DNA of 34,340 nucleotides from Candidatus Peribacteraceae bacterium (GTDB lineage: Bacteria; Patescibacteriota; Gracilibacteria; JAHISY01), in NCBI GenBank assembly GCA_021734705.1, contig JAIPIJ010000006.1, positions 1 to 34,340 of the forward strand, written 5' to 3'. Within the stretch, counting starts at the first letter, position 1, and each line of letters begins with the position of its first letter. Shown piece by piece: positions 10,165 to 33,670 of this stretch. Made by a program: the position numbers and the translations under genes. The notes beneath the pieces are model-generated. The model did not search any database. It was not told where the DNA came from and saw nothing but the letters and a program-made list of their open reading frames with translations.

Positions 10165-10210
10165 TTAAGTTCCTAAACCTAGAACCTAAACCCTAATCCC
10201 TAAAACCTAG
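10165..10210 (+). repeat. Heptanucleotide array, CCTAAAC type, between rpmJ and rpsM
   Basis: Units of 7 bases, consensus CCTAAAC, begin at 10178, 10185, 10192, 10199 and 10206, preceded by a 6-base unit at 10172 and a degenerate one at 10165. Almost every unit holds TAA or TAG, so stops occur in all three frames. The array ends 2 bases before the rpsM ATG and fills most of the otherwise empty 82-base gap. Confidence 0.75.
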
Positions 10211-13547: not shown

Positions 13548-13985
13548 ATGGAAGCTAAAGCTATTAAAAAAGACGCCGAGAAAAAAGATACCCGACCGTA
13601 TGTCTTCGCTGTCGGCAAACGCAAGACTGCCGTCGCCCGCGTGAAACTCTTTCCGGGCGGCAAAGGTGGAGTCACCGTCAATGAGCGAGAGCTGAAAGAA
13701 TACTTCACGGTTGGTAAAGACGTTTCCATATTCCTCGCACCATTCAAAGCGGCCGAAGCTAGCGACAAGAGCTATGATGTCGAAGTTAAAATCGTCGGTG
13801 GTGGCATCTCAGCCGGAGCAGCCGCCTGCCAACTCGGCATCGCCCGCGCCCTGGTCAAAGAAGACGAAACTCGCAAAGGCATCCTGCGCAAAGCTGGATT
13901 CCTGACTCGCGACGGCCGCACCAAAGAGCGCAAGAAGCCAGGCCTGAAGAGAGCGCGTCGCGCACCACAGTGGAGTAAGCGTTAG
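13548..13985 (+). CDS. rpsI: Ribosomal protein uS9
   Basis: A 145-residue 30S protein whose C-terminal tail reaches the P-site tRNA. VFAVGKRKTAVARVKLFPG, the GGGISAGAAACQLGIARAL helix and the ending RDGRTKERKKPGLKRARRAPQWSKR are all canonical, including the final KR. It starts with ATG and carries a short charged N-terminal extension (MEAKAIKKDAEKKDTRP). It is the last gene of the operon. Its TAG stop is the first three bases of a TAGTTAC heptad array that also folds into the terminator. Confidence 0.97.
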   Translation: MEAKAIKKDAEKKDTRPYVFAVGKRKTAVARVKLFPGGKGGVTVNERELKEYFTVGKDVSIFLAPFKAAEASDKSYDVEVKIVGGGISAGAAACQLGIARALVKEDETRKGILRKAGFLTRDGRTKERKKPGLKRARRAPQWSKR

Positions 13986-14024
13986 TTACTAGTTACTAGC
14001 CACTAGTAACTAGTTTTTAGTTGC
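13983..14024 (+). repeat. Heptanucleotide array, TAGTTAC type, starting at the rpsI stop codon
   Basis: Six consecutive 7-base units all begin with TAG (13983, 13990, 13997, 14004, 14011, 14018). The first TAG is the rpsI stop codon. Because 7 is not a multiple of 3, successive TAGs fall in all three frames within 21 bases. A seventh, degenerate unit (CAGTGTT) follows. Confidence 0.9.
13988..14018 (+). terminator. Intrinsic terminator of the infA-rpsI operon, built from the heptad array
   Basis: ACTAGTTACTAG (13988-13999) and CTAGTAACTAGT (14003-14014) form a perfect 12-bp stem with a 3-base loop (CCA), followed by four more T. The stem arises because one unit reads TAGTAAC in place of TAGTTAC. 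The position right behind rpsI and before a convergent gene fits a terminator. Confidence 0.75.
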
Positions 14025-14050
14025 CAGTGTTTTTGGTATGTATAGTTTGT

Positions 14051-14071
14051 TCCATGCTTCATGTTTCATAC
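14051..14071 (-). repeat. Heptanucleotide array, CATGAAG type, after purT
   Basis: Three 7-base units (plus strand TCCATGC, TTCATGT, TTCATAC) abut the TGA stop of purT (14072-14074) with no gap. Read on the purT strand, two of the three units carry TGA. Confidence 0.8.
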
Positions 14072-15250
14072 TCACTCCTCCACTACTTTTATCTGCTCCA
14101 ACATCCTCCCCGTCTTCTCGCGGGCTTTTTCGACATCTACATCCGCGGCGAGACAGACTCCGAGGCGGCGGTTCGGACGGGAGGACGGCTTGCCGAAAAG
14201 GCGGATGGCTGTGTCTTTCTCCTTCAGAGCTTCATCGATGCCTTCGAAGGAGATATTTTCTGAGTTTTTGGCAGCTAGGATTACTCGCGAAGCTGCTGGA
14301 CGGACATTTTTGATCTCCGGGATAGGTAAACCGAGGATTGCCCGAACGTGTAGCTCAAATTCGCTCAGATTCTGTGAGATCAAGGTGACCAATCCGGTAT
14401 CGTGAGGGCGTGGGGAAACTTCACTGAAGATAACGTCATCGCCGGCGATAAATAATTCAACGCCGAAAATACCACGGCCACCGAGATTCTCGACGACGGC
14501 TCCGGCAATTTCCTCACACTTCTTGATAACTGCATCAGAAAAACCCTGGGGCTGCCAACTCTCGCGGTAATCCCCCGCGATCTGGACATGGCCCACCGGC
14601 GGACAGAAAGAAATACCGTCGACGTGGCGAACAGTCAGCAGAGTGATCTCTGTGTCGAATTTGACGAACTCTTCGATAATTACTTTCTCGGACTTACCGC
14701 GTGATCCAGAAAGTGCATACTCAAAGGCCTTTTCGATATCTTCTTCGCTTTTAATTGTAGATTGGCCCTTGCCGGAAGAAGACTGGATCGGCTTCACGAC
14801 ACAAGGAATCCCGATCTCTTCGACCGCAGCCTTGAATTCATCCAGATTCTCTGCGAAAGCATATTTGGCGGTCGGCAATTTCAATTCCTCAGCGGCGAGC
14901 CGACGAATCCCCTCGCGGTTCATCGTCAGGTTGGTCGCCCGAGCAGTTGGGATGACGTTGAAGCCTTCCTTTTCTAATTCGAGCAGCAACTCAGTATTAA
15001 TCGCCTCAATCTCCGGAACGATATAGTCTGGCTTTTCAGACTCGATCACTTTGCGCAGTTCCTCGTCTGACTGCATATCAATCACAAAGCTCTTGTGGGC
15101 AACCTGCATCGCCGGAGCGTTTTCGTAGCGATCCACACCGATGACTTCGACACCAAGCCGTTGCGCTTCAATCACGACTTCTTTGCCAAGTTCGCCGCAG
15201 CCAAGCAGCATTAGTTTGGTAGCTGTTGAGGTGAGCGGAGTGCCGAGCAT
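14072..15250 (-). CDS. purT: Formate-dependent phosphoribosylglycinamide formyltransferase
   Basis: PurT is an ATP-grasp enzyme that makes formyl-GAR from GAR, formate and ATP in purine synthesis, without folate. The 392-residue length matches the family. [25 protein letters not shown] is the N-terminal dinucleotide-type fold. ATP-grasp motifs follow ([62 protein letters not shown]), and the C-terminus has [21 protein letters not shown]. The closely related PurK lacks the SPRPHDTG form seen here. No other purine gene is in the window; small-genome Patescibacteria often lack this pathway, so it points to a less reduced member. ATG start, 17 bases after the Wzy-like gene. Confidence 0.95.
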
Positions 15251-22690: not shown

Positions 22691-23776
22691 TTAAATTGCC
22701 AAATTAGGGTTGACTGTGATCATTTTACTCCATTTTTTACGGGAATTTTGTGCAAGCCAATATCCAGCCGCCGCAACCATCGCCGCATTGTCCGTGCAGA
22801 ATGCAAACTTCTCCGGATGGCGAAATATAATATTCAATTCCCCAGCGTAGCCAGATAAACGCTCGCGCAAGGCCAAGTTCGCACTCACACCACCAGCCAG
22901 ATGAATCTCTTTAGCTTTAAATTTTTTAGCAGCGAGGAAAGTTTTCGTAGCCAGTACGTCAACGACCGATTCTTGGAACCCGGCGGCAATATTCCTCTTC
23001 TGCTTCATGTTACGTGCTTCATGCTTCATAGTGGTAGTTCTACGCCGGACTTCTGATTTCAAACCTGAAAAAGAAAAATCAAAATTACGCAGCTGCATTT
23101 TTCCGGAACGCAACCGTTCCCCCACTTCGACTGAATCAAAGTTCCTAGCAATATCCTTCGGCAGCAGCCACGCCCGCGGAAGATTCTCCGGATTTTTCGC
23201 TTGTTGGGAAATCCGCTGGATCTCCGGACCACCGGGATACGGCAAGCCAATTAGCCGGGCGACTTTATCAAAAGCCTCGCCAGCTGCATCATCCAGCGTT
23301 TCCCCAATCAGTTTTGGCTTAGATTTGGCGTTTTTCAGTAAAACCAACTCATTGTGCCCCCCACTCGCAGTAAGGACAATGATTGGGTATTTGAAACTCT
23401 TGGTATCACGCTCTAGCCAATTAGATCGGACATGGGCGAAGATATGGTTAACTGGAATTAATTTCTTGCCAGAAACCCCTGCCAAAGTATTGGCCGTAAT
23501 TACACCGGCTAAAAGGGAGGAATTCAAACCCGGACCTGCCGCTACAGCTATCGCCTTAATTTCTGAAAATCTTGTTTTAGCCTTTCGCAAAGCTTCTTCA
23601 ATCACCGGTATGATCTTACCAACATGAGTCCGAGCAGCCACCTCGGGAACGACTCCCCCGGTTTTGCGGTGTAAGGCAATCTGCGAAGCCACGACGTTAG
23701 CCAAAACTCGCGAGCCGTCTTCGACGACAGCCGCCGCGGTTTCATCACAACTCGTTTCTATGCCAAGAATTTTCAT
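22691..23776 (-). CDS. tsaD: tRNA threonylcarbamoyladenosine transferase TsaD, with a repeat-encoded insertion
   Basis: TsaD transfers the threonylcarbamoyl group to A37 of ANN-decoding tRNAs. The 361-residue protein has MKILGIETSCDETAAAVVEDG at the start, the metal-binding histidines H111 and H115 in HIFAH, GPGLNSSLLAG, LDDAAGEAFDKVARLIGLPYPGG, HLAGGVSANLALRE and the CTDNAAM aspartate. After FDFSFSGLKSEVRRRT the usual loop is replaced by residues 250-259 (MKHEARNMKQ). These are encoded by four 7-base repeat units, after which IAAGFQESVVDVL resumes the family sequence. The unit that would give an in-frame TGA if it matched the consensus reads ACGTAAC. The gene starts at ATG 23776 inside a small inverted repeat. 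Partners tsaB, tsaC and tsaE are not in the window. Confidence 0.95.
   Translation of the reverse strand: MKILGIETSCDETAAAVVEDGSRVLANVVASQIALHRKTGGVVPEVAARTHVGKIIPVIEEALRKAKTRFSEIKAIAVAAGPGLNSSLLAGVITANTLAGVSGKKLIPVNHIFAHVRSNWLERDTKSFKYPIIVLTASGGHNELVLLKNAKSKPKLIGETLDDAAGEAFDKVARLIGLPYPGGPEIQRISQQAKNPENLPRAWLLPKDIARNFDSVEVGERLRSGKMQLRNFDFSFSGLKSEVRRRTTTMKHEARNMKQKRNIAAGFQESVVDVLATKTFLAAKKFKAKEIHLAGGVSANLALRERLSGYAGELNIIFRHPEKFAFCTDNAAMVAAAGYWLAQNSRKKWSKMITVNPNLAI
23002..23029 (-). repeat. Heptanucleotide array, CATGAAG type, translated inside tsaD
   Basis: On the coding strand the units are ATGAAGC, ATGAAGC, then ACGTAAC, then ATGAAGC. It encodes MKHEARNMKQ in a variable surface loop of TsaD. 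The deviant third unit is the one whose consensus form would create a TGA stop in frame. Confidence 0.85.
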
Positions 23777-26062: not shown

Positions 26063-26102
26063 CCGCTAACAGCCTAGATTTAGCATAGCTAACAACAAGC
26101 TG

Positions 26103-26130
26103 CTTCATGCTACATGCTTCATGCTACATG
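26103..26130 (-). repeat. Heptanucleotide array, CATGAAG type, after rpmE
   Basis: Four units that alternate CTTCATG and CTACATG on the plus strand, giving a 14-base higher-order period. The array ends 3 bases from the TAG stop of rpmE (26134-26136). Confidence 0.85.
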
Positions 26131-26133
26131 CGA

Positions 26134-26604
26134 CTACTCTGCTTTCTTCTGCTCAGGAGCCTCCGCCTGCTCAGCTGGAGCAGCAGCCTCGGCACTTTCT
26201 GCCTCTACTTTCTCGGTGTCTTTTTTAGCTTTCACTTCCTCTTCTAGTCTTGCTTTCGCTAATTCACGCTTGGTAACGGCAGATTTCACTTTCTTAACGG
26301 CCTTCTTGGAGTCCACGGCGCTAGTGCGTGCCACAGAGCTAGCAGCCGCAGCCGCTTTGACGCTTTCGGAAATCTTGGTCTTCTTTTTGGAAACTTGAGT
26401 TTTCTTAGCGGCCTCCATACGCGCACGGAATTTATCAACCTTGCCGGCCGTATCGACTAGTTTTTGCTTACCAGTGTAAAAAGGATGGCAAGCTGAGCAA
26501 ACCTCAGTCTTGATCTCAGCTGCAGTGGATTCAAACACGAAGCTTGCTCCACAACCGCAGGTCGCTGTAGTTTTCTGAGTTTTGGGATGGATACCGGATT
26601 TCAT
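26134..26604 (-). CDS. rpmE: Ribosomal protein bL31 with a long C-terminal extension
   Basis: The N-terminal 65 residues are bL31: [27 protein letters not shown], then [29 protein letters not shown]. Cysteines at 16, 18, 36 and 39 form the zinc site of the C+ form. The remaining 90 or so residues are a low-complexity tail rich in K, A and E (for example [17 protein letters not shown] and the ending [12 protein letters not shown]). Normal bL31 is about 70 residues, so the product is twice the usual size. ATG start, with TATAAT ending 8 bases upstream and a second TAAAAT box further out. Confidence 0.94.
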
Positions 26605-29156: not shown

Positions 29157-29210
29157 TTTAGTTAATTATTAGTTAAGAATAATTGATGACTGATATAAAC
29201 AATTAATTTG

Positions 29211-29231
29211 CTTCATGCTTCATGCTTCATG
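29211..29231 (-). repeat. Heptanucleotide array, CATGAAG type, after yidC
   Basis: Three identical 7-base units (plus strand CTTCATG) abut the TAG stop of yidC (29232-29234) with no gap. TGA recurs every 7 bases on the coding strand. The remaining gap before jag holds decayed TAACTAA-like words. Confidence 0.9.
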
Positions 29232-30413
29232 CTATTTAATTTGCCGATTGACAACGATCTGCTGGCCGATACCAAAGAGCGTCGAAGTACCCCAGTAAAT
29301 ACCTACACCCGCTGGCATTGAGACAGCGAAAAATCCGATCATAATCGGCAGGAAGTAGGGCATCACTTTAGTCATTGACTGCATCGCATCAGCCATCGCA
29401 TTCTCTCCAGGTTTCTTCTGAGGCTGGTTCTTCTTCGAGTGGTGCATCGCCAGCTTCATTTGCGCAAATTGTGCCAGGGCTAGGAAGATCGGTAAAGCGA
29501 AATAGAACTGTGCGCCCGGAGCCAGAAGTTCAATACCGAAGAAATTAGTCGTAACAGCAGCGAGATTAAAGTCTGAAAGAAAAGGATAGAGTAAAACAAA
29601 AGTGTTTTCACCGAGACCATCGCGGGTCACCCAAAACAGCGCGATCAAAAAAGGCATCTGGATCAAGATCGGCAGACAGCTGCCAAAAGGAGAAACTTTA
29701 TTTTTCTTCATCAGCGCCATTGTTTCCATAGCGATCATTTGTTGGTTGCCTTCGTAACGCTTCTTGATCTCGTCTAGCTGCGGCTGAATTTTTTGGAGCT
29801 TGCGTTGAGACTTCAAACTTTTTTGGAATGGCACGAAAAGTAAAGCCCGCAACAAAAGTGTCAATAAAACAATGCCCCAGCCGAAACTGTGTCCGGCTAA
29901 GTCAGTCAGAGCCACGAGCAAATTGTAAATCGGTCGGTAGACGATCGTACGCCAGATCTTGCCAAAAAATCCCGGATTGGAAATTTCGATTTCTTTGAAG
30001 AAAGTTTTATCAGCTACAGGAATTTCAATACGATATTGACCAGCTTCTGCGAATAAATCTCGCTGCCAAGGCTGATAACTGACTCCGATATGGGCCCCTG
30101 GTTCAATTTCAAAATTTGCTTCAGCACACCTGCTAACGTCAGCTGTCGCTGTGACTAGCTGCCATTCACCATTTAAATACTGCGACACTTGAAAAGGCTC
30201 GCCGGGGCAATCATTGGCTAGTGCCATCGGCTTAGCCGTGTTGTTTTGTAGCGTGAGAGTCACTGCATTACCGACGGTAATTTCATCGCGTGCCACAATT
30301 TGCAAATCGTCACGCTCGGCCGGATCAGCTTCCTGTTTGTTGGAGAAAGCCTGAACCAGCAAAATTGTAATTACCGCGATCAGCGCATAATTCAGCAACT
30401 TCTGTTTATTCAT
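29232..30413 (-). CDS. yidC: Membrane protein insertase YidC
   Basis: YidC inserts proteins into the cytoplasmic membrane, alone or with Sec. The 393-residue protein has an N-terminal membrane segment (7-23, LNYALIAVITILLVQAF) and an extracytoplasmic domain of about 130 residues. The five-helix 60KD_IMP core follows: NLLVALTDLAGHSFGWGIVLLTLLLRALLFVPFQ with the groove arginine R189, the KIQPQLDEIKKRYEG hairpin, SPFGSCLPILIQMPFLIALFWV and MSTMPAGVGIYW-like SMPAGVGIYWGTSTLFGI. The outside domain is smaller than in Proteobacteria. Start ATG, 9 bases after rnpA. Confidence 0.95.
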   Translation of the reverse strand: MNKQKLLNYALIAVITILLVQAFSNKQEADPAERDDLQIVARDEITVGNAVTLTLQNNTAKPMALANDCPGEPFQVSQYLNGEWQLVTATADVSRCAEANFEIEPGAHIGVSYQPWQRDLFAEAGQYRIEIPVADKTFFKEIEISNPGFFGKIWRTIVYRPIYNLLVALTDLAGHSFGWGIVLLTLLLRALLFVPFQKSLKSQRKLQKIQPQLDEIKKRYEGNQQMIAMETMALMKKNKVSPFGSCLPILIQMPFLIALFWVTRDGLGENTFVLLYPFLSDFNLAAVTTNFFGIELLAPGAQFYFALPIFLALAQFAQMKLAMHHSKKNQPQKKPGENAMADAMQSMTKVMPYFLPIMIGFFAVSMPAGVGIYWGTSTLFGIGQQIVVNRQIK

Positions 30414-33580: not shown

Positions 33581-33621
33581 GCTGAAAGCTCGCTCCTTTG
33601 ATAAACTTCCTTCACTTTTGC

Positions 33622-33670
33622 TGCATGTTACGTGTTCCATGTTTCATGCTTCATGTTCCCTGCTTTATGA
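33622..33670 (+). repeat. Heptanucleotide array, TTCATGC type, containing the metK start codon
   Basis: Seven consecutive 7-base units (starts at 33622, 33629, 33636, 33643, 33650, 33657, 33664). Four have ATG at unit positions 4-6 and two have GTG or CTG there; the last unit, TTTATGA, provides the metK ATG (33667-33669). Confidence 0.85.

Follow-up and report, generated by a model that had tools for sequence, protein, structure and literature searches.

The rpsI stop codon as first unit of a heptanucleotide array: a probable member of the gene-boundary heptads of a Candidatus Peribacteraceae genus

The locus described here raises the question why the stop codon of a ribosomal-protein gene should open a tandem array with a period of seven bases, and what such an array is for. 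The gene is rpsI, encoding 30S ribosomal protein S9, which occupies positions 13548-13985 of the forward strand in a window of 34,340 nucleotides (nt) of a Candidatus Peribacteraceae bacterium (contig JAIPIJ010000006.1). It is the final gene of a ribosomal-protein/rpoA run, and its open reading frame (ORF) scores 141 bits against the NCBIfam S9 equivalog, for a cut-off of 112. Read directly, positions 13983-14024 of the same strand are composed of six heptads, TAGTTAC, TAGTTAC, TAGCCAC, TAGTAAC, TAGTTTT and TAGTTGC, with TAGs at +0, 7, 14, 21, 28 and 35 from the rpsI stop, the first of which is the stop itself (13983-13985). The original prediction described this arrangement correctly, and proposed that the array combined a translational fail-safe with the terminator of the most highly expressed operon in the window, an expression level assumed from gene content. 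The analysis presented below leads to a different answer: the rpsI array is probably a member of a genus-wide set of slippage-type heptads kept at gene boundaries, and it has apparently been recruited as a terminator. The arrays of this set have a period of 7, lie flush against genes, repeat the gene's own stop every 7 bases and keep their positions between species while their units turn over.

The self-match score of the rpsI array at lag 7 was 15.5 over 13983-14022, against values not exceeding 3 at the other lags from 4 to 11 (p=2e-4 in 5000 dinucleotide shuffles), and Tandem Repeats Finder reported period 7 at 13983-14015; the array thus has the head-to-tail 7-base unit, repeated beyond chance, of intergenic heptanucleotide tandem repeats. 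The small genome of the window (G000; 854,022 bases in 51 contigs) was read in stretches, and the longest ORFs of at least 80 amino acids were taken as genes. It contains 55 intergenic arrays with a score of at least 10 at lag 7 versus 2-8 at lags 6 and 8-13, and in the sister species G004 there are 86 such arrays versus 4-28 at other lags. At a score of 13, 32 of the 41 arrays were intergenic, the other lags giving 0-3 intergenic arrays except for the harmonic 14. Both the enrichment between genes and the excess of period 7 over other periods are those of heptanucleotide repeats.

The arrays are not scattered evenly in the gaps. Of the 55 arrays of G000, 41 have a gene boundary at most 6 nt away (19.4 expected from random placement in the same gaps), as do 49 of the 86 in G004 (21.9 expected). 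The unit families cluster around CTAG/TAGTT, CATG, TTAA and AATT, and other units found in G000 include CATGAAG, AACCTGA and CTTAATC. Compared with permutations of the stops among genes, the gene's own stop is in excess at +7/14/21/28, with 60 occurrences versus 38.9 expected in G000 (p=0.001) and 84 versus 63.2 in G004 (p=0.005); among the six other phases five were null and 6/13/20/27 was weakly raised. Since this excess occurs in both genomes, carried by TAG in G000 and by TAA in G004, arrays of this genus tend to take the stop as their first unit, and rpsI is no special case. Among 17 TAGTT arrays of G000, 15 also read outward from their gene (on the coding strand after stops in 7/8, on the non-coding strand before starts in 8/9; p=0.003), the tendency being weaker in G004 (5/8); as it was decided only after inspection which strand of each family to call outward, we treat the orientation rule as a lead.

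Comparison of G000 with G004 (557 reciprocal best pairs, median identity 76%) revealed that arrays occur within 15 nt at the same 5′ gene ends in 7 cases versus 1.7 expected (p=7e-4) and at the same 3′ gene ends in 5 versus 1.4 (p=6e-3), with permutation within gap-length classes; the units differ in most of these pairs. At rpsI itself TAG recurs every 7 bases six times in G000, five times in G003, which was partly read, and four times in G004 (after a first TAG). The TAGTT family is present with differing spacers in these three species and absent from G001 and G002, so that the conserved TAG period looked for in relatives was found in two of the four sister species. G001 and G002 are sisters and group with G003 (support 0.87); the TAGTT family at rpsI is possibly ancestral with one loss, or else was gained twice. 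Exact TAGTTNC arrays were detected in 9 of 288 genomes of the class, with 13 matches in G000 and none in genomes of the same genus, and therefore this unit in its exact form does not mark the lineage. Many phyla carry such arrays (at least 118 stretches), which were non-coding in 122 of 128 cases. A link to phages was considered and rejected: viral TAGTTNC arrays were present in 32 contigs, none of them at a sense stop.

Within the rpsI array a perfect 12-bp stem (13988-14014, forward strand; arms 13988-13999 and 14003-14014, loop CCA at 14000-14002; −13.9 kcal/mol) begins 5 nt past the first base of the stop codon. It is followed at 14015-14022 by the T-rich tract TTTTAGTT (six T in eight bases), built by repeat units 5 and 6, in which the RNA 3′ end is predicted; the tract flanks the hairpin on the rpsI strand only. 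A stem-loop downstream of a stop and directly followed by a U-rich tract is the layout of an intrinsic terminator. When 480 operon-type gene ends were scored alike, the rpsI hairpin ranked 24th, and values of −12 kcal/mol or below were reached by 6.2% of these ends versus 0/480 shuffled ends. Four of the 12 pairs are G-C, the stability of the stem coming from its length. A pure TAGTTAC array would itself fold (best 27-mer −10.0 kcal/mol), the palindrome CTAG leaving a single T-T mismatch in every 7 bp; tandem copies of this unit thus come close to being their own inverted repeat and tend to form hairpins without design. Two variant units, and not a single one as had been proposed, shape the hairpin of the actual array: with unit 4 (TAGTAAC) the mismatches disappear and one arm becomes perfect, and the loop comes from unit 3 (TAGCCAC). 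Several other CTAG arrays of the genome also fold, mostly without a T-tract. No credible Rfam match was obtained at 13800-14300, and no tRNA was found in the window.

The proposal that the array terminates the operon therefore stands as a prediction resting on folding energy, rank and the sense-strand T-tract, and the rpsI hairpin is likely a credible intrinsic terminator that is specific to this species within the genus. After rpsI the four genomes G001-G004 lack the hairpin and gave no terminator better than −6.3 kcal/mol, and the expectation of a conserved hairpin failed in all four sister species. In seven further members of the class rpsI is directly followed by strong unrelated terminators (−11.5 kcal/mol or better), which makes this point a usual end of operons. 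Hairpins with a T-tract were found at 3 of 25 gene-end arrays in G000 and at 1 of 36 in the sister species G004. In L065 (contig 36 of G000) a second TAGTT-type array at 1337-1366, 2 nt past a TAA stop, carries a predicted terminator AGTTACTAGTGACTGGTGGCTAGTTGCTAGAACT then TTTCTTTT (−14.3 kcal/mol), and the matching gene end of G004 has a TAAGTCA-type array instead. In the window CATGAAG arrays at 26101-26134 and 29209-29233 begin at the TAG stops of minus-strand genes, and the former also has a sense-terminator score of −12.0 kcal/mol with the tail TGTTGTTA.

The convergent neighbour of rpsI is purT (14072-15250, minus strand), encoding formate-dependent phosphoribosylglycinamide formyltransferase; it was assigned from its ORF and a family profile, and its orthologue adjoins rpsI in G004 and G001. 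Beside the purT stop begins a second array of about three units of the CATGAAR family (14048-14071, minus strand; Tandem Repeats Finder score 30 at 14048-14069, with the unit TGTTTCA on the plus strand), which faces the rpsI array, and the 86 bases between the two genes hold two different heptad arrays placed head-on. In the corresponding gap of G004 (L024), about 60-85 bases past rpsI, an inverted repeat ATTCCCGCGTAGGCGGGAAT looks like a dispersed REP-type element. Further CATG-family stretches are located in the window at 33619-33669 (TGCTTCATGTTACA), overlapping the start of a called ORF, and at 22997-23029 (CTTCATG).

The opposite end of the ribosomal run is likewise preceded by heptads. 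The array AACCTAG... at 10176-10209 of the plus strand ends 3 nt upstream of the first ORF of the run (10213), at a place where G004 has an AATTTTA array. This array and those at genes A_29_8, A_8_24 and A_32_6 end 1-4 nt before starts confirmed by orthologues, which leaves no room for a Shine-Dalgarno site, and such genes are candidates for leaderless or Shine-Dalgarno-independent initiation. At many 5′ gene ends of G000 and G004 the arrays before starts often read CTTAATCC/CTTACTCC on the coding strand, which resembles the anti-Shine-Dalgarno and not the Shine-Dalgarno sequence.

It seems distinctly unlikely to us that the TAG array was selected as a dual-purpose element, a three-frame fail-safe and the terminator of a highly expressed operon at once. 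The TAGs do close all three frames within 21 bases, which is rare in the genome (1.7th percentile), the hairpin with its T-tract is strong, the TAG period is kept in G003 and G004 despite the differing spacers, and TAG ends rpsI in all five members of the genus though it ends just 162 of 785 genes in G000 (TGA ends 173). The closure, however, is mostly an arithmetic by-product, since 7 is not divisible by 3 and any stop that returns every 7 bases closes every frame. A ribosome reading on in the rpsI frame would meet no stop before the fourth unit, 21 bases downstream (codon 7; 31st percentile genome-wide, median 15), and no second in-frame stop stands within the first codons as in a fail-safe tandem stop. 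In-frame stops follow genes at 0.58 per 10 codons versus 0.68 and 0.68 for off-frame ones, neither of two genomes has an in-frame excess, and the TAGTTNC arrays at 3′ ends in other bacteria (36 sense, 30 antisense) are not oriented to place TAG in sense. On these grounds selection for frame closure was rejected as the main cause; the closure pointed out in the original prediction is real, the selected fail-safe is not upheld. TAG-array units moreover occur far from stops and, reversed, before start codons, the hairpin has no counterpart in any sister species and most gene-end arrays lack a terminator. A unique dual purpose of one array does not agree with the dozens of heptad arrays of other units at other gene ends. 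Some members of the class have rpsI with read-through TGA codons; G000 uses TGA as a stop. A plain intrinsic terminator whose period is an accident of an A+T-rich palindromic stem would account for the hairpin and T-tract at the operon end, but the periodicity (p=2e-4) extends beyond the stem on both sides and period 7 occurs without the hairpin at rpsI of G003 and G004; this explanation we hold to be highly improbable, and an accidental period is refuted by the genome-wide lag-7 excess.

The heptads might also be binding sites of a regulatory, nucleoid or RNA-binding protein, selected for 7-base spacing, with unit changes due to co-evolution or loose specificity. Positions conserved beyond the effect of gap length while units change would fit this explanation, as would the family-specific orientation of the TAGTT arrays and the palindromic tetramers CTAG, CATG, TTAA and AATT, which are present in 39 of 55 units in G000 versus 22 expected, though in 51 versus 42 in G004. 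Translational regulators have in fact been proposed by MacGregor for TAACTGA repeats before starts (PMC4679880). Nevertheless, the unit sets differ between two genomes of one genus, which makes a single sequence-specific binder unlikely, TAGTTNC arrays are found in many unrelated phyla, and no common function was noticed among the genes flanking arrays, for which no formal test was made. On balance we regard protein binding as an unlikely cause of the heptads.

We therefore favour as the probable explanation that the rpsI array belongs to the slippage-type heptads of the genus. According to this model the short degenerate 7-base tandem repeats that fill gaps between genes, flush with stop and start codons, would arise and re-homogenise by replication slippage or similar copying where insertions and deletions are tolerated. 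Growth would start where the gap first offers a free base, namely at the stop codon in the case of 3′ ends. The CTAG palindrome in the unit makes the direct repeat almost its own inverted repeat, and the variants TAGTAAC and TAGCCAC together with the T-rich TAGTTTT produce the 12-bp hairpin and T-tract, most likely the terminator of the rpsI operon in this species. Several points weigh against this interpretation. The slippage origin and the re-homogenisation are the steps that we infer, and selection for period 7 could likewise leave arrays at shared positions with their units replaced. The rpsI stem is weaker in composition than the usual G+C-rich terminators of the genome, and gene-end arrays are not enriched for terminators, their 3/25 comparing with 11% of all operon-type ends. 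Longest-ORF calling biases the 5′ distances, and several starts were confirmed by alignment of orthologues from residue 1. A stronger version of the slippage model is tentative, and as a whole doubtful: a process of the genus would build 7-base arrays outward from genes, those at 3′ ends templated by the gene's own stop, selection or continuous copying would keep the period while units change, and self-complementary arrays would be recruited as terminators. Heptads tied to gene boundaries, one of which has apparently become a terminator, offer a testable path from simple repeats to regulatory elements in a lineage whose terminators are poorly known.

Heptads have been reported to lead among the longer microsatellites of many bacteria, and neither their origin nor their role has so far been explained. 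According to Mrazek et al. (2007), as cited in PMC4679880 and PMC4692102, heptanucleotides dominate the 5-11-base repeats of prokaryotes and may have originated by slippage at a 7-base polymerase contact. The arrays described here differ from those heptanucleotides in their degeneracy, in having several families of units in one genome, in their contact with gene ends and in containing the stop codon. In the literature found, long simple sequence repeats of this heptanucleotide type are not described for the lineage, and a search on the unit sequence, judged by titles, gave nothing on such repeats and chance letter matches. Several tandem heptanucleotides per genome, as in G000, are known from the STRR heptads of Calothrix, whose unit sequences are unlike those here. 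They are mentioned in PMC4692102, and no stop-codon anchoring is described for them in the literature found. The GGGAATC heptads of Xanthomonas and Nostoc are under-represented between divergent genes and follow an outward-orientation rule (PMC4692102), and the TAGTT arrays also read outward. The GGGAATC unit is G-rich and forms G-quadruplexes, whereas the rpsI unit is A+T-rich, lacks G-tracts, contains CTAG and forms a hairpin, and whole unit families are exchanged between species in our case.

The TAACTGA direct repeats of Beggiatoaceae, Cyanobacteria and Bacteroidetes (PMC4679880) are likewise heptads between genes whose unit contains a stop codon; they often stand one to a few nt before starts without a ribosome-binding site and are mixed with related heptamers, some of which overlap the end of the upstream gene. 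The position just before a start is shared by other arrays of G000 and not by that of rpsI, the unit of which is TAGTTAC and not TAACTGA. TAACTGA repeats have a single dominant unit, lie mostly before starts and have no predicted structure, whereas here there are many units, arrays at both gene ends and a self-complementary unit. With intrinsic (rho-independent) terminators the rpsI array shares the stem, the short loop and the T-tract right after the last gene of the operon, and it is set apart from the usual ones by a stem that consists of tandem repeat units and is rich in A+T, with 4 G-C pairs among 12. The slippage origin, the intergenic site, the shared positions with unit variation and the placement just before starts are on record for heptads (PMC4679880, PMC4692102). 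As far as the literature found shows, the own-stop phase effect, the wholesale exchange of units at fixed gene ends within one genus and a terminator made from such units are new. The heptads of this genus are tied to stop codons and gene boundaries, where position is kept and sequence is not, and one of them apparently now serves as the terminator of an operon.
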